A DNA stretch of 64,000 nucleotides from Crossiella cryophila (lineage in GTDB: Bacteria > Actinomycetota > Actinomycetes > Mycobacteriales > Pseudonocardiaceae): assembly GCF_014204915.1 (NCBI RefSeq), contig NZ_JACHMH010000001.1:9585501-9649500 (forward strand), in the 5' to 3' direction. Position 1 is the stretch's first letter, and every line of letters starts with the position of its first letter. Below the pieces are notes generated by a model that worked only from the letters and a program-made list of their open reading frames with translations, had not been told where the DNA came from and did not search any database. Below, piece after piece: positions 27,678 to 56,902 of the stretch. The position numbers and the translations under genes were made by a program.

Positions 27678-27743
27678 GTGTTGGCCGTTCTCGTACCCCG
27701 TGTTGGCCGTTCTCGTACGCCGTGTTGGCCGTTATGGGACGCG
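27678..27743 (+). repeat. 22-bp repeat array I (three units)
   Basis: GTGTTGGCCGTT begins at 27678, 27700 and 27722, an exact 22-bp period. Between the cores is (T/A)CTCGTAC-type sequence. The array lies in the 81-nt gap between the convergent stops of the PIN gene and kdpE, in the sense of the PIN gene. No classical terminator is seen in this gap. Confidence 0.9.
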
Positions 27744-46376: not shown

Positions 46377-46394
46377 CGGGCCACCCCATCCGGC

Positions 46395-46460
46395 GTGTTG
46401 GCCGTTCTGGTACGGCGTGTTGGCCGTTGTTGTACGGGGTGTTGGCCGTTGTGGGCGGGT
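46395..46460 (+). repeat. 22-bp repeat array II (three units)
   Basis: GTGTTGGCCGTT starts at 46395, 46417 and 46439, an exact 22-bp period; inter-core sequence is CTGGTACGGC, then GTTGTACGGG. It begins 19 nt after the stop of the XRE-like gene and is in its sense. Confidence 0.9.
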
Positions 46461-46476: not shown

Positions 46477-46740
46477 GATCAAGATCAAGGGCGTCCTCGC
46501 CGGACGGGCAGAAATCAAAGGATGGGGGGAGAAAATCAAGAGCAGAGAACAGTGCTCAGGTGCGGTTCCCCATCCCCGTCAGCCCTCCGATACCAAACCA
46601 CATCCCAGCCAGCGGCCCCCTGCGGTTGGGAGGCTAGGGCGGCGGCAGGTTGCGGGGCCGCTGGCTGGGATGCGGTGTGTCCTCTCCAGGCTGACGGGGA
46701 TGGGGAACCGCTCGGGTGGGGTTTGAAAAGCCACCCCGGC
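46477..46740 (-). ncRNA. Structured element copy A (candidate 3'-end RNA), sense strand minus
   Basis: Two nested stems. Outer: perfect 23-bp arms at 46562-46584 and 46689-46711. Inner: perfect 19-bp arms at 46601-46619 and 46654-46672. The 34-nt apical loop on the minus strand reads GCAACCTGCCGCCGCCCTAG then CCTCCCAACCGCAG. Just outside the inner stem, an A-C mismatch (46600/46673) becomes a U-G pair if the minus strand is the RNA. Flanks 46493-46529 (37 nt) and 46723-46740 (18 nt) are identical to copy B. It lies downstream of pyc in the pyc sense, beyond the pyc terminator. No reading frame is supported. Confidence 0.7.
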
Positions 46741-46748
46741 TGCTGGTG

Positions 46749-46847
46749 CGGGCTCCGCCCGGTCGCGGCGCGTTCGAACCGCCTAGCCGCAGTGTTCCCG
46801 GGCTTCGCCCGCCTGCCCCCAACGCTCACCGCTCCGGGCTTCGCCCG
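46749..46847. repeat. Three small CGGGC(T/C)YCGCCCG hairpins
   Basis: CGGGCTCCGCCCG at 46749-46761 and CGGGCTTCGCCCG at 46799-46811 and 46835-46847. The same 13-mer recurs at 56079-56091 beside structured copy B. Each would form a tight GGGC/GCCC hairpin. They sit between the structured element and the pyc terminator. Confidence 0.6.
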
Positions 46848-46863
46848 CCCGCCCGGTGTCCAC

Positions 46864-46875
46864 AACGGCCAACAC
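46864..46875 (-). repeat. Single 22-bp-family core on the minus strand
   Basis: AACGGCCAACAC, the exact complement of the core GTGTTGGCCGTT. It lies between the pyc terminator and structured copy A, in the sense of pyc. Confidence 0.8.
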
Positions 46876-46900
46876 TCGGCCTGCGGTGTCCCGGTACAAA

Positions 46901-46949
46901 GCTCTCCCCCGGCCGGACTCCGTCGAGCAGAGCCTGACCGGGGGAGAGC
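46901..46949 (-). terminator. Terminator after pyc
   Basis: Perfect 12-bp arms GCTCTCCCCCGG / CCGGGGGAGAGC with a 25-nt loop, followed on the minus strand by TTTGT. It lies 21 nt past the pyc stop. Confidence 0.75.
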
Positions 46950-46970
46950 AGTCGTTCAGCGGGAGCCGCC

Positions 46971-49900
46971 TCAGCCGAGTTCGATCAGCAGGTCCCCGCC
47001 CTCGACCTGCTGGACCTTGCCGATGGCCAGGCGCTTGACCGTGCCTGCCTTCGGCGAGGTGATGGCGGCCTCCATCTTCATCGCCTCGATGGTGGCCACG
47101 GTCTGGCCGGACTCCACCTCGTCGCCCTCGCCCACGGTCAGCGTGACCACGCCGGCGAAGGGCGCCGGCACGTGGTCGGCGTTGCCGCGGTCGGCCTTCT
47201 CCGCCTGCGGGACGTCCGCGGCGACCGAGCGGTCGCGGACCGCGATCGGGCGGAGCTGGCCGTTGAGGGTGGCCATCACCGTGCGCATGCCGCGGTCGTC
47301 GGCCTCGCCGATGGCCTCCAGGCCGATGAGCAGGCGGACGCCGGGTTCCAGGTCGACCGAGTACTCCTCCCCCGGGCGCAGGCCGTAGAAGAAGTCCTTG
47401 CTGCGGAGCACGCTGGTGTTGCCGTATGCCTCGCGGTGGGTGGTGAACTCCTTGGCGGGGGCCGGGAAGAGCAGCCGGTTCAGGGTCTGCCTGCGGTCGG
47501 TTTCCAGGCCACGGCGGTCGTCGTCGGTCAGCTCGGCTACCCGGCGCGGTTCCTTGCGGCCGGCCAGGGCCTTGGTGCGGAAGGGTTCCGGCCAGCCGCC
47601 GGGCGGGTCGCCCAGTTCGCCGGAGAGGAAGCCGATCACCGAGTCCGGGATGTCGAAACGGCCCGGCTCCTCCTCGAACTCCTCCGGCGCGACCCCGGCG
47701 CCGACCAGGTGCAGCGCCAGGTCGCCGACGACCTTGGAGGACGGGGTCACCTTGACCAGGCGGCCCAGCATCCGGTCGGCGGCGGCGTAGGTGGCCTCGA
47801 TCTGCTCGAACTTCTCGCCGAGGCCCAGTGCGATGGCCTGCTGGCGCAGGTTGGAGAGCTGGCCGCCGGGGATCTCGTGGCTGTACACCCGGCCGGTCGG
47901 CGAGGGCAGGCCGGACTCGAACGGGGTGTAGATCCGCCGCACCGCCTCCCAGTACGGCTCCAGGTCGCACACCGCGCGCAGGTCCAGACCGGTCTCGCGC
48001 TCGGTGTGGTCGGTGGCCGCGACGATCGCGGACAGCGCGGGCTGCGAGGTGGTGCCCGCCATGGACGCGGCCGCGCCGTCCACCGCGTCCACCCCGGCCG
48101 CGATCGCGGCGGTGTAGGTGGCGAGCTGGCCACCGGGGGTGTCGTGGGTGTGCAGGTGCACCGGCAGGTCGAACTCCTTGCGCAGCGCCGAGACCAGGGT
48201 GGCCGCGGCGGGCGGGCGGAGCAGTCCGGCCATGTCCTTGACGCAGAGGATGTGCGCCCCTGCGGTGACCATCTGCTCGGCCAGCCGCAGGTAGTAGTCC
48301 AGCGTGTACAGCTTCTCGTTCGGATCCGACAGGTCCGCGGTGTAGCAGAGCGCGACCTCGGCGATCGCGGTTCCGGTGTCCTGCACCGCGCGGATCGCCG
48401 GGATCATCTGCTCGACGTCGTTGAGCGCGTCGAAGATGCGGAAGATGTCGATGCCGGTGGCGGTGGCCTCCTCCACGAAGGCCTGCGTCACCGCCTCCGG
48501 GTACGGCGTGTAGCCGACCGTGTTGCGCCCGCGCAGCAGCATCTGCAGGCAGATGTTGGGCACCGCCTCGCGCAGCGCGGCCAGCCGCTCCCACGGGTCC
48601 TCGGCCAGGAAGCGCAGCGCCACGTCATAGGTCGCGCCACCCCAGCACTCCAGCGAGAACAGCTCCGGGGTCAGCCGGGCCACGTGCGGGGCCACCGCCA
48701 GCAGGTCCTTGGAGCGGACCCGGGTGGCCAGCAGGGACTGGTGCGCGTCCCGGAAGGTGGTGTCGGTGACGCCGACCGCGGCGTTGCTGCGCAGCCAGCC
48801 GGCGAACCCGCGTGGTCCCAGTTCGATCAACTTCTGCCGGGTGCCAGCGGCCGGGGTGGCGTTGAGGTCGGCGAAGGGCAGCTTCTGCGCCGGGTCCACC
48901 GTGCTCGGCCGGACGCCGTTGGGCTTGTTGACGGTGACGTCGGCGAGGTAGGTGAGCAGCCGGGTGCCGCGGTCGGCGGAGTGCCGGGCGGTCAGCAGGT
49001 GCGGGCGCTGCTCGATGAAGGAGGTGGTGACCCTGCCTTCCTGGAAGTCGACGTCGTCGAGCACCGCCTGCAGGAACGGGATGTTGGTGGACACACCGCG
49101 GATGCGGAACTCGGCCACCGCGCGCCGGGACTTCGCCACCGCGATGGCGAAGTTGCGCCCGCGACAGGTCAGCTTGACCAGCATCGAGTCGAAGTGCGCC
49201 GAGATCGCGGTGCCGGCGAAGGTGGTGCCGCCGTCCAGGCGCACGCCGGAGCCGCCGGGCGAGCGGTAGGCGGTGATCCGGCCGGTGTCCGGGCGGAAGC
49301 CGTTGGCCGGGTCCTCGGTGGTGATCCGGCACTGCAGCGCCGCGCCGTGCAGGACGATCGACTCCTGGGTCAGACCGAGGTCGGCCAGGGTCTCCCCGGA
49401 GGCGATCCGGATCTGGGCCTGCACCAGGTCGACGTCGGTGACCTCCTCGGTCACCGTGTGCTCGACCTGGATGCGCGGGTTCATCTCGATGAAGACGTGC
49501 TTGCCCTGCCGGTCCAGCAGGAACTCGACCGTGCCGGCGTTGACGTAGCCGATCTGGCGGGCGAAGGCGACCGCGTCCGCGCAGATCCTGGCCCGCAGCT
49601 CGGGGTCAAGGTTGGGCGCGGGGGCGATCTCGATGACCTTCTGGTGCCGCCGCTGCACCGAGCAGTCGCGCTCGTAGAGGTGGATCACGTTGCCGGCGGC
49701 GTCGGCGAGGATCTGCACCTCGATGTGCCGTGGTTCGACCACGGCCTGCTCCAGGAACACGGTGGCGTCGCCGAAGGCCGATTCGGCCTCCCGCATCGCC
49801 GCCTCCAGGGCCTCGCGCAGCCCCTCCGGCCGTTCGACCCGGCGCATACCGCGTCCGCCGCCACCGGCGACGGCCTTGACGAAGACCGGGAACCCGACCC

Positions 49901-50348
49901 CCTCTGCCGCGGCCAGCAGCTCCTCGACGTCGGCCGATGGCGCGGACGAGCCGAGCACCGGCAGGCCGGCCGCCTTGGCCGCGGCGATCGCGCGGGCCTT
50001 GTTGCCGGTGAGCTGGAGCACCTCGGGGGTCGGCCCCACGAAGGTGATCCCGGCTTCCCGGCAGGCGTGCGACAGGTCGGGGTTCTCCGAGAGGAAGCCG
50101 TAGCCGGGGTAGATCGCGTCCGCGCCCGCCTTGCGCGCGGCCTTGATCACCTCTTCCACGGACAGGTATGCCCGCACCGGGTGCCCCGGATCACCGATCT
50201 CGTAGGCCTCGTCGGCCTTCAACCGGTGCAGGGAGTTGCGGTCCTCATGGGGGAACACGGCCACAGTGCCAGCGCCGAGTTCGTATGCCGCGCGGAACGC
50301 GCGGATAGCGATCTCGCCGCGGTTGGCGACAAGGACCTTCCGGAACAT
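46971..50348 (-). CDS. pyc: Pyruvate carboxylase (1125 aa)
   Basis: Full-length single-chain enzyme: biotin carboxylase domain (FRKVLVANRGEIAIRAFRAA, the ATP-grasp glycine loop AVAGGGGRGMRRV, FIEMNPRIQVEHTVTEEVTD), carboxyltransferase domain (VTDTTFRDAHQSLLATRVRS, CVKDMAGLLRPPAAATL, HLHTHDTPGGQLATY) and the C-terminal biotin carrier domain with EAMKMEA (~residue 1090). Converts pyruvate to oxaloacetate to refill the TCA cycle. The start at 50348 has GGAGGAG upstream; extra upstream open frame is not supported. Gene order rsmD ... pyc ... recG also occurs in mycobacteria. Confidence 0.97.
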   Translation of the reverse strand: MFRKVLVANRGEIAIRAFRAAYELGAGTVAVFPHEDRNSLHRLKADEAYEIGDPGHPVRAYLSVEEVIKAARKAGADAIYPGYGFLSENPDLSHACREAGITFVGPTPEVLQLTGNKARAIAAAKAAGLPVLGSSAPSADVEELLAAAEGVGFPVFVKAVAGGGGRGMRRVERPEGLREALEAAMREAESAFGDATVFLEQAVVEPRHIEVQILADAAGNVIHLYERDCSVQRRHQKVIEIAPAPNLDPELRARICADAVAFARQIGYVNAGTVEFLLDRQGKHVFIEMNPRIQVEHTVTEEVTDVDLVQAQIRIASGETLADLGLTQESIVLHGAALQCRITTEDPANGFRPDTGRITAYRSPGGSGVRLDGGTTFAGTAISAHFDSMLVKLTCRGRNFAIAVAKSRRAVAEFRIRGVSTNIPFLQAVLDDVDFQEGRVTTSFIEQRPHLLTARHSADRGTRLLTYLADVTVNKPNGVRPSTVDPAQKLPFADLNATPAAGTRQKLIELGPRGFAGWLRSNAAVGVTDTTFRDAHQSLLATRVRSKDLLAVAPHVARLTPELFSLECWGGATYDVALRFLAEDPWERLAALREAVPNICLQMLLRGRNTVGYTPYPEAVTQAFVEEATATGIDIFRIFDALNDVEQMIPAIRAVQDTGTAIAEVALCYTADLSDPNEKLYTLDYYLRLAEQMVTAGAHILCVKDMAGLLRPPAAATLVSALRKEFDLPVHLHTHDTPGGQLATYTAAIAAGVDAVDGAAASMAGTTSQPALSAIVAATDHTERETGLDLRAVCDLEPYWEAVRRIYTPFESGLPSPTGRVYSHEIPGGQLSNLRQQAIALGLGEKFEQIEATYAAADRMLGRLVKVTPSSKVVGDLALHLVGAGVAPEEFEEEPGRFDIPDSVIGFLSGELGDPPGGWPEPFRTKALAGRKEPRRVAELTDDDRRGLETDRRQTLNRLLFPAPAKEFTTHREAYGNTSVLRSKDFFYGLRPGEEYSVDLEPGVRLLIGLEAIGEADDRGMRTVMATLNGQLRPIAVRDRSVAADVPQAEKADRGNADHVPAPFAGVVTLTVGEGDEVESGQTVATIEAMKMEAAITSPKAGTVKRLAIGKVQQVEGGDLLIELG

Positions 50349-50544
50349 AACCAGCTCCTCCTGGTGGCGGACAGGCCAGCCGAAGCACCGTATCGCGGTA
50401 CTCCCGCCAGTCGGGAGAACCATCCCAGGTGACGGGCGTCTCCCCTGATGTGCGCAACCGGCCCCCAACTGGGTCGTTCGATCGCGCAAAACCTCCGGTG
50501 GACGGGTGCGACGTTGACCCGACCAGGTCCGTCGCGCACAGTGA

Positions 50545-50563
50545 CCCCCCGTACGCAGGGGGG
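50545..50563. promoter_or_regulatory. CCCCCC-N7-GGGGGG hairpin upstream of the 150-aa gene
   Basis: Perfect six-base arms around GTACGCA, ending 20 nt before the ATG at 50584. It could mask the ribosome binding site or act as an operator. The 235-nt gap between pyc and this gene holds no other feature I can support. Confidence 0.35.
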
Positions 50564-50583
50564 CCGGACGAGCAGAGGTCGTG

Positions 50584-51036
50584 ATGGCAAGAGTCGTGTC
50601 CAGCATCGCCCAGTCGGTTCTGGTGGAGAACGACCACTTCACGCTGCACGACGACCGCGGCCCGGCGCCCAGCCTGCCACCGGACCCGGTGGACCGCGAC
50701 CTGGTGCACGCCGACCTGGGCCACGCGGTCTTCCGCAGCGCCGCGAGCACGCACTACGCGGCGGTGCGGGTGGAGCTGTGGGACGGCGAGCCGCTGCGCT
50801 CCACCGCCGAGGGCTGGGACGCCAAGGGCGCGGTGGAGGTGCTGGCGGGCAGCGCGGAGCTGGTGCTCGGACCGGTGGTCACGGTGAGCGAGACCGCGCG
50901 GCTGTCGTTGCCGGTGCCGGGGCGGTACCGGATCGACGCGGCCTCCCGCGGGCGGGCGGACATCCAGGCGCTCGGGCCGGGGTCCTACGCGCACGGGGTG
51001 GAGAACTGGGTGATCCGGATCTGGCCGGTGGGTTAG
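50584..51036 (+). CDS. Hypothetical beta-rich protein (150 aa)
   Basis: No family recognised. The protein is beta-strand-like (HFTLHDDRG, RVELWDGEPL, AELVLGPVVTVSE, RLSLPVPGRYRIDA) with no signal peptide or transmembrane segment. Coding bias is normal. AGAGGT 5 nt before the ATG at 50584 supports this start over the adjacent GTG at 50581. Its stop overlaps that of convergent recG by 4 nt. Confidence 0.7.
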   Translation: MARVVSSIAQSVLVENDHFTLHDDRGPAPSLPPDPVDRDLVHADLGHAVFRSAASTHYAAVRVELWDGEPLRSTAEGWDAKGAVEVLAGSAELVLGPVVTVSETARLSLPVPGRYRIDAASRGRADIQALGPGSYAHGVENWVIRIWPVG

Positions 51037-53243
51037 GCCTTCTCGAGGTACTCGGCCTTCTCCGCGTCGACCAGGGACTGCAGCAGCCCGGCCAGGCCGG
51101 GGTAGGCGCGTAGTTCCGGGTCCTCGGTGAGCAGGGCCACCGCCTCGGTGCGGGCGGTGGCGATGACGTCCTCGTCGCGGAGCAGGGACAGCATCTTGAG
51201 GGTGGACTTGGCGCCGGACTGGGTGGTGCCCAGGATGTCGCCCTCGCGGCGGAGTTCCAGGTCCATCTGGGCCAGCTCGAAGCCGTCGGTGGTGGCCGCG
51301 ACCGCGTCCAGGCGTTCCCTGGTCGCGGTGCCGCCGGGGGCCTCGGAGACCAGCAGGCAGAGCCCGGCCGCGCTGCCCCGGCCGACCCGGCCGCGCAGCT
51401 GGTGCAGCTGGCTGACGCCGAAGCGGTCCGCGTCCATGATCGCCATCACGGTGGCGTTGGGCACGTTCACGCCGACCTCGACCACGGTGGTGGCCACCAG
51501 GACCTGGACCTTGCCGTCGGCGAAACCGCGCATCACGGTGTCCTTGTCCTCCGGCGCCAGGCGGCCGTGCAGGATGCCGACGTTGAGGCCGGCCAGGGGT
51601 CCGGCGGCCAGTGCGGGGGCCACGTCCAGCACGGCCAGCGGCGGGCGGCGGTCGCCCTTGCCGCCCTTGTCCTCCTTGGGCGGCTCCAGGCTCGGGTCGT
51701 CGGCGCCGTCGATGTCGTCCTCGGCTTCGGCCTCACCGATCCGCGGGCAGACCACATATGCCTGGTGACCTGCGCGGACCTCCTCGGTGATGCGCTGCCA
51801 GACCCGGTCCAGCCAGGCCGGCTTCTCCGCGGTCGGCACCACGTTGGTGCTGATCGGGGAGCGGCCGCGGGGCAGCTCACGCAGTGCGGAGACCTCCAGG
51901 TCGCCGTAGACGGTCATGGCCACCGTGCGCGGGATCGGGGTGGCGGTCATGACCAGCACGTGCGGGCTGGTGCCCTCGCCGGCCCTGGTGCGCAGCGCGT
52001 CCCGCTGCTCCACGCCGAAGCGGTGCTGTTCGTCCACCACGACCAGGCCCAGGTCGGCGAAGATGACCTTGTCCTGGATCAGCGCGTGCGTGCCGACCAC
52101 GATCCCGGCCGTGCCGGAGGCGATGTCCAGCATCGCCTGCCTGCGTTCCTTGGTGCTCATCGAGCCGGTGAGCAGGGTGAGCCTGGTGGCGTGGCCTGGC
52201 GCGCCGAGTTCGCCAGCGCGGGCCAGGTCGCCGAGCATCTCGGCCAGTGAGCGGGCGTGCTGGGCGGCCAGCACCTCGGTCGGGGCGAGCATGGCCGCCT
52301 GCCTGCCCGCGTCCACCACCTGCAGCATCGCCCGCAGCGCGACGATGGTCTTGCCGGAGCCGACCTCGCCCTGCAGCAGCCGGTTCATCGGGTGCTCACC
52401 GGAGAGGTCGGTCGCGACCGCCTCGCCGACCTCCTGCTGACCGGCGGTGAGCTGGAACGGGAGCTGCTTGTCGAAGTCGGCGAGCACGCCGTCCGGGCGG
52501 GGCGCGCAGCGCGGGGCCGGCCGGGCGCCGGAGACGATCCGGCGCTGGGCCAGCACCAGCTGCACGGCCAGCGCCTCATCCCACTTGAGCCGGTTGCGCG
52601 CGCTGGTCACCTCGGCCCAGTCGGCAGGCCGGTGCACCTTGCGCAGCGAGCCGGACAGGTCGGCCAGGCCGTGCCGGGCGCGCACCACCTCCGGCAGCGG
52701 GTCCTCGGTGCCGTCCCACAGGTCCAGGACCTGGCGCACGCACTTCTCCACCACCCAGGTCTCGATGCCCTTGCTGGCCGGGTAGACCGGGATCAGGCCG
52801 CGGGCGAACTCGTCGGCGACCGAGTCGTCCTCGTCCGCGCCGAGCAGCTTGTAGTCGGGGTGGGCGAGCTGGAGCGCGCCGTTGAAGGAGGTGACCTTGC
52901 CCGCGAACAGCCCGCGCTTGCCGACCACCAGGTCCTTGGCCCGGTGCGGCTGGTTGAAGAAGGCGATGGTCATAGCCCGCTGGCCGTCGGTGATCGTGGA
53001 CTCCACGATCGAGCCGTACTTGGTCTTCATCCGGCGCACCGTGGTGGAGCGGACCTCGGCCAGCACGGTGGCGTGCTCGCCGATCTCCAGTCCGGCGATG
53101 CTGGTCAGCTCGCCGCGCTCGGCGTAGCGGCGCGGGTAGTGCCGGAGCAGGTCGCCGACGGTGCGCAGGTTCAGGCCTTTGTCCAGGGCCTCGGCGGTCT
53201 TGGCCCCGAGCACGTGGTCCAGCCGGTCGTCGAAGGTGGTCAT
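51033..53243 (-). CDS. recG: ATP-dependent DNA helicase RecG (736 aa)
   Basis: Branch-migrating helicase acting on stalled forks and Holliday junctions. N-terminal wedge/OB region (LRTVGDLLRHYPRRYAERGE, KTKYGSIVESTITDGQRAMT), helicase domain 1 with Walker A LLQGEVGSGKTIVALRAML and DEQH motif LVVVDEQHRFGVEQRDALR, and domain 2 with ATTVVEVGVNVPNATVMAIM then HQLRGRVGRGSAAGLCLL. A Glu/Asp/Lys insertion (DDIDGADDPSLEPPKEDKGG) interrupts domain 2. ATG at 53243. The usual recG-DAK2-rpmB neighbourhood is kept. Confidence 0.96.
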   Translation of the reverse strand: MTTFDDRLDHVLGAKTAEALDKGLNLRTVGDLLRHYPRRYAERGELTSIAGLEIGEHATVLAEVRSTTVRRMKTKYGSIVESTITDGQRAMTIAFFNQPHRAKDLVVGKRGLFAGKVTSFNGALQLAHPDYKLLGADEDDSVADEFARGLIPVYPASKGIETWVVEKCVRQVLDLWDGTEDPLPEVVRARHGLADLSGSLRKVHRPADWAEVTSARNRLKWDEALAVQLVLAQRRIVSGARPAPRCAPRPDGVLADFDKQLPFQLTAGQQEVGEAVATDLSGEHPMNRLLQGEVGSGKTIVALRAMLQVVDAGRQAAMLAPTEVLAAQHARSLAEMLGDLARAGELGAPGHATRLTLLTGSMSTKERRQAMLDIASGTAGIVVGTHALIQDKVIFADLGLVVVDEQHRFGVEQRDALRTRAGEGTSPHVLVMTATPIPRTVAMTVYGDLEVSALRELPRGRSPISTNVVPTAEKPAWLDRVWQRITEEVRAGHQAYVVCPRIGEAEAEDDIDGADDPSLEPPKEDKGGKGDRRPPLAVLDVAPALAAGPLAGLNVGILHGRLAPEDKDTVMRGFADGKVQVLVATTVVEVGVNVPNATVMAIMDADRFGVSQLHQLRGRVGRGSAAGLCLLVSEAPGGTATRERLDAVAATTDGFELAQMDLELRREGDILGTTQSGAKSTLKMLSLLRDEDVIATARTEAVALLTEDPELRAYPGLAGLLQSLVDAEKAEYLEKA

Positions 53244-53271
53244 CGCCGTCCATTCAACCGCGTGGCACTGA

Positions 53272-54873
53272 CTATTCGACGCCCAGCAACACCATCGCGC
53301 CGCGCGGACCACCCGAGTACGCGGCCAGGTCGACCTCGGGGTGGGCGCGGCGCAGGTGTTCCTCGACCTCGCCGACCAGCTCCGGCGGCGCGGCCGCGCC
53401 GAGCAGCAGGGTGACCAGTTCGCCGCCCGCGGAGAGCATCCGGTCCAGCAGCTCGCACACGGCAGGGGCCGGATCGGCGCTGATCAGGACGACCTCGCGG
53501 TCGATCATGCCGAGCAGGTCGCCAGGACGGCAGCGCCCGGCCCAGGTGATCGCCTCGGCCTGGGCGACGGCCAGTTCGCCGCGCCGGGTGGCCGCGGCGG
53601 CCTCGGCCATCGCCACCACGTCGTCGCCGTGCCGCCGCTGCGGGTCGTGCACGGCCAGCGCGGCCAGGCCCTGCACCGGGGAGGCGGTGGGCACCACGAC
53701 CACGTCGTAGCCGGAGCGCATGGCGTGCTCGGCGGCGTCCTCGGCGATCATGGTCAGCTCGGGATCGTTGGGCAGCACCACGATGTGCTTGGCGCCGGCA
53801 CCGGTGAGGGTGGCCAGCAGTTCGGCCGCGGCGGGCCGCTGCCCGGTCCACTGGCAGACCACCGCGCCCTCGCCGCGGAACAGCTCGGCCAGCCCGTCCC
53901 CGTCGGCGAGCACCACCACCGCGCGGTCGCGCAGCAGGCCGGTGGGCTCGGTGGGCAGCTGGTCGGCGAAGCGGATCACGGTGATCCGGTGCGGCCTGCC
54001 CGCCTCCACCCCCGCCTCGACGGCCGCGCCCACGTCCTGGCAGTGCACGTGCACGGTCCACAGACCCGCGCCGTCGGAGACCACGGAGACGCAGTCGCCC
54101 AGTTCGCTCAGCCGGGCGCGCAGGGCGGCGCAGCGGGTGTCGTCGGTGCTGTCCAGCAGGTACATGACCTCGTAGTCGTACTCGGCCGAACCCGCCTCGC
54201 GGGTGGCCTGGAGTTCGGCCTTGCCACGCCGGACCAGGGCGTCGAACCGGGCGGATGAGGGCAGAGGCAGGCCGGTGACCACGGCGGTGAGGGTTTCCAG
54301 CAGCACCAGCAACCCGCGGCCACCCGCGTCGACCACGCCCGCGCGGGCCAGTGCGGGGAGCTGGCTGGGGGTGCGGGCCAGGGCGTCGGCCGCGGCGGTG
54401 CTGGCGGCGAAGGCCACCTGGTCCAGGGTCTCGCCCGCCACGGCGGCGGCCTCGGCGGCGGCGTGCATGACGCTGAGCACGGTGCCAGGGGCCGGTTCGC
54501 TGACCGCGGCGGTGGCCAGCCGATCGGCCAGCCGGAGTCCGTCCTTGAGCGCGGGCCCGGTGAGCGTGCCGTCCAGGCGCAACGCCTCGGCCAGCCCACG
54601 CAACACCTGGGACAGGATCACCCCGGAGTTGCCGCGCGCCCCCGCCAGCGCGCCCTTGGCCAGCGCGGCCAGTGCCGACCCGCCGTCCACCGCGATGACC
54701 TGGTCCAGGGCCTCCAGCGCGGCCCGCATGGTGTGCAGCAGATTGCTGCCGGTGTCCCCGTCGGGCACCGGGAAGACGTTGATGCGGTCGATCGCCTCGC
54801 GGTCGGCGGTCAGCGCCTGCACGCAGGCCGCGGCCCACCCCCGCACCGCGACCGCGTCGAGCACCTGCAACAC
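53272..54873 (-). CDS. DAK2/DhaL-domain protein (FakA-like, 533 aa)
   Basis: The N-terminal DhaL domain carries REAIDRINVFPVPDGDTGSN with the Asp residues that bind Mg-ATP, then GARGNSGVILSQVLRGLAEA and AGVVDAGGRGLLVLLETLTA. A central EDD/FakA-middle domain (EYDYEVMYLLDSTDDTRCAA) and a C-terminal region follow. FakA proteins phosphorylate fatty acids held by a DegV/FakB partner; no partner gene is in the window. GTG at 54873 is chosen: AGGGAGG lies 9 nt upstream and LQVLDAVAVRGW gives the normal family start. It sits next to recG and divergent from rpmB, as in mycobacteria. Confidence 0.88.
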   Translation of the reverse strand: MLQVLDAVAVRGWAAACVQALTADREAIDRINVFPVPDGDTGSNLLHTMRAALEALDQVIAVDGGSALAALAKGALAGARGNSGVILSQVLRGLAEALRLDGTLTGPALKDGLRLADRLATAAVSEPAPGTVLSVMHAAAEAAAVAGETLDQVAFAASTAAADALARTPSQLPALARAGVVDAGGRGLLVLLETLTAVVTGLPLPSSARFDALVRRGKAELQATREAGSAEYDYEVMYLLDSTDDTRCAALRARLSELGDCVSVVSDGAGLWTVHVHCQDVGAAVEAGVEAGRPHRITVIRFADQLPTEPTGLLRDRAVVVLADGDGLAELFRGEGAVVCQWTGQRPAAAELLATLTGAGAKHIVVLPNDPELTMIAEDAAEHAMRSGYDVVVVPTASPVQGLAALAVHDPQRRHGDDVVAMAEAAAATRRGELAVAQAEAITWAGRCRPGDLLGMIDREVVLISADPAPAVCELLDRMLSAGGELVTLLLGAAAPPELVGEVEEHLRRAHPEVDLAAYSGGPRGAMVLLGVE

Positions 54874-55073
54874 CTGCGGCCGCCTCCCTCTAGATGTTGC
54901 ACGCGAGACTAGTCGGTAGGGCCGGTTTGGTTGGGCGTGCGTGCACCAGATACGCTGTCGGGGTTGCCCGGCTCGGCCTGGGCTCATGCACGCATCCGCA
55001 CCCGGGTACGTGCGCCCGTTTTTGCCAGCTGGCATCGCGGACTCTGTAGAACAACGTGTAAGGAGTGTCTGAC

Positions 55074-55265
55074 GTGGCTGCCGTTTGCGACGTCTGTAGC
55101 AAGGGGCCGGGCTTCGGCAAGTCGGTCTCGCACTCCCACCGGAGGACCAACCGCCGGTGGAACCCGAACATTCAGACCGTGCGCGCGAAGATCGGCCTGT
55201 CGCAGCGCAAGCGCCTGAACGTGTGCACCTCCTGCCTCAAGGCGGGCAAGGTCGCCCGCGGCTGA
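55074..55265 (+). CDS. rpmB: 50S ribosomal protein L28 (63 aa)
   Basis: [20 protein letters not shown], then [17 protein letters not shown] and [16 protein letters not shown], is L28 with four Cys (C-x-x-C ... C-x-x-C), the zinc-binding form. GTG start at 55074 with AAGGAG 8 nt upstream. Divergent from the DAK2 gene. Its 3' end leads into a repeat-rich region of nearly 1 kb. Confidence 0.95.
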
Positions 55266-55347
55266 GTTCGGCCGCAGCTTCGGCGAGAGGCCCGGATCAC
55301 ATCAGTGGTCCGGGCCTCTCGCTGTCTGCCGAGCAAGATCATCCCGA

Positions 55348-55435
55348 GTGTTGGCCGTTGTCGTACGGAGTGTTGGCCGTTCTTGTACGGAGTGTTGGCC
55401 GTTGTGGGACGGGTCGTTGGCCGTTGTTGTACGGC
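55348..55435 (+). repeat. 22-bp repeat array III (four units)
   Basis: Units begin at 55348, 55370, 55392 and 55414, an exact 22-bp period. The first three have the core GTGTTGGCCGTT; the fourth is TCGTTGGCCGTT. Inter-core sequence is GTCGTACGGA, CTTGTACGGA, GTGGGACGGG and GTTGTACGGC. It lies 83 nt past the rpmB stop and just upstream of copy C. Confidence 0.9.
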
Positions 55436-55481
55436 CGCAGGCCGGGGGTTGGGGTTTGGGGTTGGGGGTAAACCCCCACGA

Positions 55482-55785
55482 CGAGGGTTCTCGCGTGTTC
55501 TCCGTACGGCCTGGAGCTTGCTGACCGCGCCTCGCCGAGTGGCCCCTGCAACCTGCTTCCGCCCTAGCTTCCCATCGTGACGGGGGCCGCTCGGTGAGGT
55601 GTGGTTGGCTTGCGGAAGGCCGTGCGGAGAACACGCGAGCCCTCGGAGCCACGCTGGAACCGGCCCCGGCAGCCCAAACCCCGCCCCGCAACCTGCTCAT
55701 CCCGGTTCTTGATCTGCCCTCCCCCCTCCGGTGGTCTGCCCGGCCGGCGAGGCCATCCTTTGTCTTTTGATCTTGATCTAAAACC
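55482..55785 (+). ncRNA. Structured element copy C (candidate 3'-end RNA), sense strand plus
   Basis: Outer stem: 55482-55512 pairs with 55617-55645 over 29 base pairs, with one U-G wobble (55505/55624) and a 2-nt bulge at 55488-55489. Inner stem: 55524-55546 pairs with 55583-55605 over 23 bp, including four G-U wobbles (55527/55602, 55529/55600, 55534/55595, 55540/55589). All five wobbles are pairs only if the plus strand is the RNA. The loop contains GCAACCTGCTTCCGCCCTAG then CTTCCCA, the same as the minus-strand loops of copies A and B. The stem sequences differ from A and B. Downstream flank 55707-55780 resembles that of A/B (CGGCGAGG, TTGATCTTGATCT). It follows rpmB in the same sense. 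Confidence 0.7.
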
Positions 55786-55793
55786 CAAAGTCA

Positions 55794-56068
55794 AGATCAA
55801 GATCGTCCTCGCCGGACGGGCAGAAATCAAAGGATGGGGGGGAAATCAAGAACAAGGGCAGAGATGAAGAGCAAGAGCAGTGCTCGTACGGTTCCCCCAT
55901 CCCCGTCAGCCCTCCGATACCAAACCACATCCCGGGCACGCAGACCGTTGCGGTTGGGAAGCTAGGGCGGCGGCAGGTTGCGGTCTGCGCACCCGGGATG
56001 TGGTGTGTCCTCTCCAGGCTGACGGGGATGGGGGAACCGCTCGGGGAGTGTTGAAAAGCCACCCCGGC
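55794..56068 (-). ncRNA. Structured element copy B (candidate 3'-end RNA), sense strand minus
   Basis: Outer stem: perfect 23-bp arms at 55889-55911 and 56017-56039. Inner stem: 11 bp (55926-55936 with 55992-56002) plus 9 bp (55939-55947 with 55981-55989). Between these are two plus-strand C-A mismatches (55937/55991 and 55938/55990) that become G-U and U-G pairs on the minus strand. The minus-strand loop has GCCGCCCTAGCTTCCCA. The inner stem differs from copy A at about half its positions yet stays paired. Flanks at 55805-55841 and 56051-56068 are identical to copy A. It lies downstream of ung in the ung sense. Confidence 0.72.
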
Positions 56069-56116
56069 CGCCTGTCCTCGGGCTTCGCCCGGCCGCAATC
56101 GCCCAAGGCGTACAAG

Positions 56117-56222
56117 AACGGCCAACGTGGTGTCCCACAACGGCCAACACTCCGTACAACAACGGCCAACACGCCGGAAGCTCTGCGCGTGTTGGCCGTT
56201 GCGGGACGGTGTGTTGGCCGTT
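56117..56222. repeat. 22-bp repeat array IV (three minus units, two plus units)
   Basis: Minus-strand cores AACGGCCAAC(G/A)(T/C) at 56117, 56139 and 56161 (22-bp period). Plus-strand cores GTGTTGGCCGTT at 56189 and 56211 (22-bp period). The two blocks face each other across GCCGGAAGCTCTGCGC and could fold into one long hairpin. The array ends 5 nt before the ung stop codon and so occupies its 3' end. Confidence 0.9.
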
Positions 56223-56227
56223 GTGGG

Positions 56228-56902
56228 TCAGAGCTTCCAGTCGATGGGGGCCGCGCCCTGTTCTTCGAGCAGGGTGTTGGCGCGGGTGAAGGGGCGGGAG
56301 CCGAAGAAGCCTCGGTCTGCTGACATCGGGGACGGGTGGGCCGACTCGATGCAGGGGACGCCGCCCAGGAGGGGCTTGAGTTCTCGGGCGTCTCGGCCCC
56401 AGAGGATGGCTACCAGGGGGGTGCCTCGGCCTGCCAGGGCGACGATGGCTTGTTCGGTCACCTGTTCCCAGCCCTTGCCTCGGTGGGAGGCGGGGCGGCC
56501 GGGGGCCACCGTGAGAGACCGGTTGAGCAGCAGGACGCCGCGCTCCGTCCAGGGGGACAGGTCGCCGTTGGGGGGTGGGGGGTGGCCCAGGTCCTCGCCG
56601 TACTCGCGGTAGATGTTGATCAAGCTCTTCGGCAGGGGGCGTACGTCGGCGGCCACCGAGAAGGACAGGCCGATGGCGTGGCCGGGGGTCGGGTAGGGGT
56701 CCTGCCCGACGATGAGCACGCGCACCTCGTCGAAGGGTTGCTTGAACGCGCGTAGCACGTTCTCCCCCGCGGGTAGGTATCGCCGGTCAGCGGCGATCTC
56801 CTCCCGGAGGAACTCCCCCATCGAGCCGATCCGGTCGGCAACCGGGTCGAGCGCCTTGGCCCAACCGGCTTCCATGATCTCGTGTAGCGGACGTCCAACC
56901 AC
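56228..56902 (-). CDS. ung: Uracil-DNA glycosylase (224 aa)
   Basis: Family 1 UDG removing uracil from DNA. Motif [21 protein letters not shown] contains the catalytic Asp; [14 protein letters not shown] is the uracil-binding Asn block; [19 protein letters not shown] is the His/leucine loop region. GTG start at 56902; a downstream ATG ([12 protein letters not shown]) is a weaker alternative. The gene lies in the usual place near recG, rpmB and thiL. The repeat array begins only 5 nt after its stop. Confidence 0.96.

Follow-up and report, generated by a model that had tools for sequence, protein, structure and literature searches.

Inverted doublets of palindromes are the known arrangement of REPINs, according to the passages of PMC3116915 that describe them. 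The Correia elements of Neisseria (CREE/NEMIS), as characterized in the relevant part of PMC2649163, exceed 120 copies, contain an inverted repeat and occupy locations that are mostly conserved between strains; RNase III can bind them, with cleavage or protection as the outcome. The Crossiella hairpins described below are a repeat family of the interspersed palindromic kind, unnamed in the resources searched. No account of this family was found in the available portions of the literature on Crossiella repeats and Crossiella non-coding RNA, or in those on intergenic palindromes, terminators, NEMIS, covarying repeats and REP/RAYT.

The window, the whole stretch of 64,000 nucleotides of Crossiella cryophila DNA that was analysed, had been read as holding three copies (A, B and C) of a candidate structured RNA with a long outer stem, a long inner stem and an invariant apical loop. 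All three copies share this stem architecture and fold that way. Sense-strand RNA folding gave z scores of −11.4 for A, −10.1 for B (55890-56038) and −13.3 for C (55490-55639), and for each of them none of 200 shuffles was as stable. Antisense folding was also far above chance, with z scores of −10.6 (A), −9.9 (B) and −9.1 (C). Sense and antisense energies were nearly equal for A (−117.7/−117.4) and B (−109.4/−109.4) and unequal for C (−119.2 vs −91.6). Within 30 model stem positions the sense strands carry 2 (A), 3 (B) and 5 (C) G·U pairs and no A·C; the earlier counts were 1, 2 and 5. No U-run or T-run was seen 3' of the hairpins in the sequences inspected, so these are not canonical intrinsic (Rho-independent) terminators.

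Copies B and C had been treated as separate. A BLAST comparison of the B/C region with 57 loci showed that C (+) and B (−) are the inward-facing left and right ends of one element of about 640 bp. Its limits were taken from the block common to these comparisons, the ends being read by inspection, and the borders fall near 55444-55464 and 56066-56096. At locus A, the element matches over 55791-56096 only. The arms of the central palindrome (55735-55766 and 55793-55824) are 78% complementary, and inspection of sequences from two other Crossiella genomes (G002 and G004) showed a cleaner palindrome there. The motif CCCCGCAACCTGCT lies in sense orientation at 55684-55697, in the stretch from C to the centre, and likewise recurs outside the hairpins in inspected G002 and G004 sequences; its opposite strand could pair with the type-1 apical loop.

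Features of the element and its surroundings in the window (R1, covariance model built from 18 sequences with 34 pairs; E, E-value)
Feature	Position	Strand	Remarks
22-bp array	46391..46456	+	left of half element A
half element A	46479..46766	-	half of centre and type-1 hairpin alone
hairpin A, type 1	46562..46711	sense -	model core 46580-46693; R1 109.0 bits, E 1.3e-20
pyruvate-carboxylase-like gene	46971..50348	-	biotin carboxylase and PYC_OADA domains; 3' end toward hairpin A
ribosomal protein L28 gene	55065..55265	+	PF00830, E 1.3e-21; 3' end toward hairpin C
22-bp GTGTTGGCCGTT array	55346..55433	+	left of complete element; separate repeat family
complete element	55458..56096	+	left type-2 hairpin, centre and right type-1 hairpin; ~640 bp
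hairpin C, type 2	55482..55645	sense +	model core 55507-55622; R1 126.5 bits, E 2.4e-24
central palindrome between hairpins C and B	55735..55824		inverted repeat
hairpin B, type 1	55889..56039	sense -	model core 55907-56021; R1 95.0 bits, E 1.2e-17
22-bp arrays	56109..56230		right of complete element; minus then plus copies
uracil-DNA glycosylase superfamily gene	56228..56902	-	PF03167, E 2.5e-8; 3' end toward hairpin B

Copy number was assessed in the window genome (G000) and in four other Crossiella genomes (G001-G004). Allowing up to three mismatches, the loop pattern gave 56 matches in the 10.06-Mb contig of G000, and a reversed-pattern control gave none. The three copies first recognized thus become 56 loop-pattern places, with at least 89 sense hairpins at the 55 loci fetched from G000. 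Fetched loci of the other genomes held 10 sense hairpins in 10 loci (G001), 38 in 24 (G002, one counted twice) and 29 in 22 (G004). At locus L146 a single hairpin was counted on both strands in the locus count. G003 gave no match to the loop pattern or to the model, so that R1 matches were present in four of five Crossiella genomes, G000 and three of the four others. The per-genome R1 totals (132, 20, 61 and 71) are not copy numbers, as both strands were counted and up to 150 candidates were scored per genome. The region of G000 from 4.8 to 7.4 Mb holds only 3 of the 55 fetched loci.

The loci with two hairpins are uniform. All 54 read + then −, none reads − then +, and the hairpins are spaced by 254-313 nt. 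The locus count gives 55 of them, the extra one being the single hairpin of L146. Half units and single-hairpin loci also occur besides these inward doublets. A transposon with an internal gene was rejected on account of this spacing, which is all that lies between the hairpins of the 54 doublets.

Outside the genus the search was largely empty. Five of 297 genomes of the family Pseudonocardiaceae matched R1, four being Crossiella, and the 292 genomes of other genera (strict filters, 12 candidates scored per genome) gave one weak match only. This lone match (L112) folds into a plain, perfect hairpin that lacks the internal loop, and was put down to chance. With one mismatch allowed, the loop pattern was absent from 36 other-genus genomes; viral contigs held no exact match to it, and phage and plasmid collections held no relative of the element. 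Carriage by viruses, plasmids or phages was rejected because neither the pattern nor the element matched there. The family was found only in Crossiella in the genomes searched. No Rfam family reached its gathering score in the window, and a lax search of four loci returned 12 matches (E up to 5), all under their gathering scores. A known riboswitch or sRNA was discarded on these results.

The pairing of the stems was examined in several alignments, of which A4 holds the best 150 of 166 matches and A5 the best 150 of 157. In alignment A3, 98.0% of 612 cells were paired, compared with 84.4% (sd 1.0) in shuffles, and both sides had changed in 16 of 34 pairs. Sliding the partner by 1-3 columns (six controls) left 37-48% paired. 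On a tree of 88 distinct stems, same-branch double changes numbered 63 in register and 8-18 in six shifted registers. Covariation beyond phylogeny, as looked for in a structured RNA, was found at six facing pairs (E<0.05) and at none of the non-facing pairs under a home-made, R-scape-like version of a tree-based null, which is not R-scape. The covariation proposed from three copies is thus borne out on a far larger sample.

Strand polarity was counted in a fixed, symmetric register of 30 stem positions, with positions 37-40 beside the loop left out. When the CCTGGA motif decided the strand, the cells of 146 distinct hairpins comprised 3983 Watson-Crick pairs, 290 G·U, 3 A·C and 104 other mismatches. 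G·U exceeded A·C in 121 hairpins and A·C exceeded G·U in 1; the corresponding numbers of positions were 17 and 2. Position 39 carries A·C 8 times and G·U once, and inclusion of positions 37-40 changed the ratio to 302 to 13. A count free of the motif filter, with the strand set by the score of a model that was itself built on sequences picked partly by CCTGGAG, gave 293 G·U vs 3 A·C in 150 distinct hairpins (176 places, one row per place), and 406 vs 13 over positions 1-40. An excess of this size on one strand means that one strand folds. The counts show selection on each hairpin for single-strand folding in one polarity.

The wobble polarity seen in the three copies is therefore upheld. It had been taken to indicate RNA as opposed to a DNA palindrome. 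The exclusion of duplex DNA largely stands, but single-stranded DNA (ssDNA) fits one-strand folding equally well, so polarity alone does not give RNA, and the new RNA family stands as one reading beside ssDNA. Many copies with random stem mismatches had been named as the pattern that would speak against a selected RNA. The copies are indeed many; their mismatches are not random, the G·U bias being strong.

The outer stem of each hairpin (about 140-165 nt in all) is variable; it is followed by a symmetric GGA/GGA internal loop, an inner stem that varies but stays paired, and an apical loop. The 3x3 internal loop, with GGA facing GGA between the outer and inner stem, was present in 146 of 150 distinct hairpins of the unfiltered set and, in the four carrier species aligned, in both hairpin types. 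The tree test and the 146-hairpin count kept only GGA/GGA rows, and the zero change in the GGA columns of these filtered sets is by construction. The conserved core is this internal loop and not the apical loop, which had been called invariant. Several type-2 loops read GCAACACAA and the type-1 loops of G002 and G004 differ; the apical loop varies among types and species and is partly conserved. In REPs, a short hairpin bears a GTAG or GGAG tag at its 5' foot. GGAG is present here in CCTGGAG, yet it lies inside the structure, between the outer and inner stem.

Some variants were observed. At locus L129 of G002, toward the left gene, there is a third, shorter class of right-hand hairpin with CCTGGAA for CCTGGAG, in which GGA still faces GGA. 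A short length class of 110-112 nt accounts for 11 model matches in G001, G002 and G004 loci and none in G000; in two of the 11, GTA replaces the second GGA. In loci of G002 and G004 (e.g. L077, L135 and L137), GCGA or CGA often stands directly 3' of the stop codon at the element edge, possibly as an end motif or a target preference.

The elements sit at the ends of genes. Of 111 loci, 54 lie in convergent, 42 in tandem and 4 in divergent gaps, with 11 unclassified, compared with 37 convergent, 164 tandem and 87 divergent among 288 baseline gaps of at least 60 nt (40 sampled 20-kb stretches). Genes were predicted by an in-house codon-usage caller, which was set more permissively for the loci than for the baseline gaps. 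The convergent excess (Fisher p 2e-15) and the divergent deficit (p 7e-9) take the loci as independent, and some are orthologous. The B/C locus was wrongly scored as tandem because the caller missed rpmB beside C. Hairpin cores lie a median of 167 nt from the stop codon (124 hairpins), a figure that is about 70 nt for G002 and G004. Of 166 hairpins, 124 face a gene lying upstream on the same strand and 42 do not. Hairpins scored as lone in tandem loci, some of which may have an unscored short partner, showed no sense bias, being sense for the upstream gene in 10 of 18. The position at gene ends, where a sense hairpin is met first from either side, suits a role at transcript ends.

Flank comparison identified 44 same-site locus pairs across species. 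Among the loci fetched, 20 of 24 in G002 have a partner in G004, and the B/C element has a same-site partner in G001. At five orthologous G000-G002 sites, type-1 identity was 0.72, compared with 0.716 at random sites, while type-1 paralogues inside G000 were 0.875 alike. For type 2, orthologous and random identities were 0.759 and 0.748 (G000-G002), and orthologues were slightly above random for G002-G004 (0.855 vs 0.821) and G000-G004 (0.787 vs 0.743), all of these values coming from 1-16 orthologous pairs per species pair. Since type-1 orthologues are no closer than random and G000 paralogues are closer, concerted evolution is indicated; on these small samples, the copies are probably homogenised within genomes by gene conversion.

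Sites lacking an element were also inspected. The site of A carries only a 22-bp array dyad in G001 and no hairpin in G002 and G004. A short hairpin stands at the same gene end in other species at the L068 site (G000 and G003) and the L143 site (G000 and G001). In other cases the element-free species lack a terminator-like hairpin as well: the L129 and L138 sites in G000, G001 and G003, L077 in G000 and G001, and L080 in G000 and G003. A MITE, as a derivative of a DDE transposon, would show a target-site duplication and the terminal inverted repeats of a transposase. Inspection of the sequences allowed no target-site duplication to be defined; inverted ends are present and the borders look mosaic.

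The 22-bp repeats are arrays of GTGTTGGCCGTTNNNGTACGGN, often as inverted dyads, with further sites in the window at 27678-27722 and 46864. Matches to the 22-bp dimer numbered 609 in G000, 130 in G001, 175 in G002, 15 in G003 and 1 in G004. At three sites, G000 has 22-bp arrays where G002 has a hairpin element.

The orientation of the elements follows replication. With dnaA placed at 1.15 Mb in G000 and, by its PF00308 match, at position 1 of G002, and the terminus taken as opposite dnaA, the type-1 hairpin comes first along the fork direction in 58 of 78 elements (p 2e-5; one of 79 loci was left out). The proportions were 38/55 in G000 and 20/23 in G002, and 51/70 with one element per G000-G002 orthologous site. 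The effect was weaker at convergent loci (29/43, p 0.03). At tandem loci it was 19/22 with the fork and 5/7 against it, and as the head-on tandem class is small (n = 7), gene direction may also cause the bias. A fork-dependent orientation favors an ssDNA step in spread.

No cognate mobilising gene was found for the element. The Y1 transposase domain PF01797 gave no match in G002, G003 and G004, one in G000 (with a stop inside) and three in G001; the same search was positive in 5 of 14 control genomes. Matches to RVT_1 occurred in all five Crossiella genomes. A reverse-transcriptase partner was rejected, as RVT_1 is present in element-free G003 and a hairpin was found at 0 of 10 loci. Y1 and reverse-transcriptase loci together had a hairpin at 0 of 14.

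The chances appear about even that these hairpins are non-autonomous REPIN/BIME-like intergenic repeats that fold on one strand, spread by ssDNA at the fork and have a role at transcript ends. The full unit is the doublet of two inward hairpins around a central palindrome, with half units besides. On small samples, copies are retained at shared gene 3' ends in different species and are homogenised per genome, probably by gene conversion. Orientation suggests that spread probably involves a single-stranded stage at the replication fork. Whichever side a transcript comes from, it would reach a sense hairpin first, and this hairpin would end the transcript or protect its 3' end. The GGA/GGA loop is a putative binding site of a factor. 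Judging from their position, the hairpins probably also work as RNA at transcript ends.

It is somewhat unlikely that the element is purely selfish, with the hairpins serving as substrates of an enzyme that processes ssDNA at the fork, RNA folding as a by-product and gene 3' ends as tolerated insertion sites. Inverted doublets with half units resemble REPINs, which are thought to be substrates of RAYTs, and the fork orientation (58/78), the avoidance of divergent gaps and the absence of sense bias at single-hairpin tandem loci (10/18) are consistent with this reading, for which the observed polarity is expected just as much. Nevertheless, no Y1 domain was found in copy-rich G002 and G004, although the search was positive in 5 of 14 controls, and none of the 14 Y1 and reverse-transcriptase loci has a hairpin. 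Long residence at the same sites with paired stems also exceeds what a selfish element needs, unless gene conversion alone suffices. A more specific proposal would be a new class of mobile hairpin doublet, spread at the fork by an enzyme unrelated to Y1/RAYT transposases that recognizes the folded strand by its symmetric GGA/GGA loop, and co-opted by the genus as a two-way transcript-end module. This proposal is tentative and, as worded, unlikely.

Binding of the palindromes as duplex or cruciform DNA by a nucleoid, replication or recombination protein is very improbable. The palindromes are very strong and dispersed over the chromosome, with GGA/GGA and loop sequence conserved; a duplex or cruciform is strand-blind, however, so that A·C should be about as frequent as G·U, whereas 3 vs 293 were observed, and the polarity largely refutes this explanation already. 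Least probable of all are neutral old repeats in which gene conversion and a sense-strand C to T bias give pairing and G·U without selection, for although homogenisation within genomes is seen and either arm of a hairpin can serve as template in repairing the other, a mutation bias of about 100-fold would be required and would not yield the same-branch double changes (63 vs 8-18).

With 150 distinct copies, compensatory change inside one genus and about 100 times more G·U than A·C, sequence alone is enough to demonstrate that a dispersed bacterial repeat folds on one strand. GGA/GGA is a testable recognition motif, and the link between repeat orientation and the replication fork can be tested in genomes without a detected RAYT-type enzyme. 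Covariation-based calls of structured RNA in repeats must weigh ssDNA.

Among known systems, IS200/IS605 elements have subterminal secondary structures and target the lagging-strand template, which could give a fork-dependent orientation, as outlined in the pertinent part of PMC6006769. Unlike theirs, the Crossiella hairpins are opposite in polarity and the unit has no transposase. The Bor, Ype and Efa families are likewise repeated stem-loops near the 3' ends of coding sequences (PMC1590033). Bor repeats measure 26-30 bp, Ype and Efa are larger, and their description, in the portion of PMC1590033 concerned, is without inward doublets, a conserved internal loop or a strand-polarity test. CREE can generate promoters according to the same part of PMC2649163, whereas the Crossiella elements, compared by description, are located at 3' ends and shun divergent gaps. 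REPs are 20-40 bp in the account of PMC3733652, compared with about 140-165 nt for the Crossiella hairpins and about 640 bp for the unit. In contrast to REPIN/RAYT systems, the Crossiella element has a conserved internal loop, no Y1 transposase was found in two of four carrier genomes (G002 and G004), and no cognate Y1 (RAYT) transposase was found, the existing PF01797 loci being without hairpin. Palindromic inverted doublets and singlets, as in REPINs, are both present (54 doublets and the single-hairpin loci). REPINs and REP-BIMEs are likewise intergenic and of high copy number, with doublets and singlets and a predicted folding of ssDNA or mRNA, as far as the corresponding passages of PMC3116915 and PMC2817692 describe them. 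Taken together, its folding on one strand, its inverted doublets and half units, and its fork-dependent orientation make the Crossiella element resemble REPINs and other ssDNA elements.
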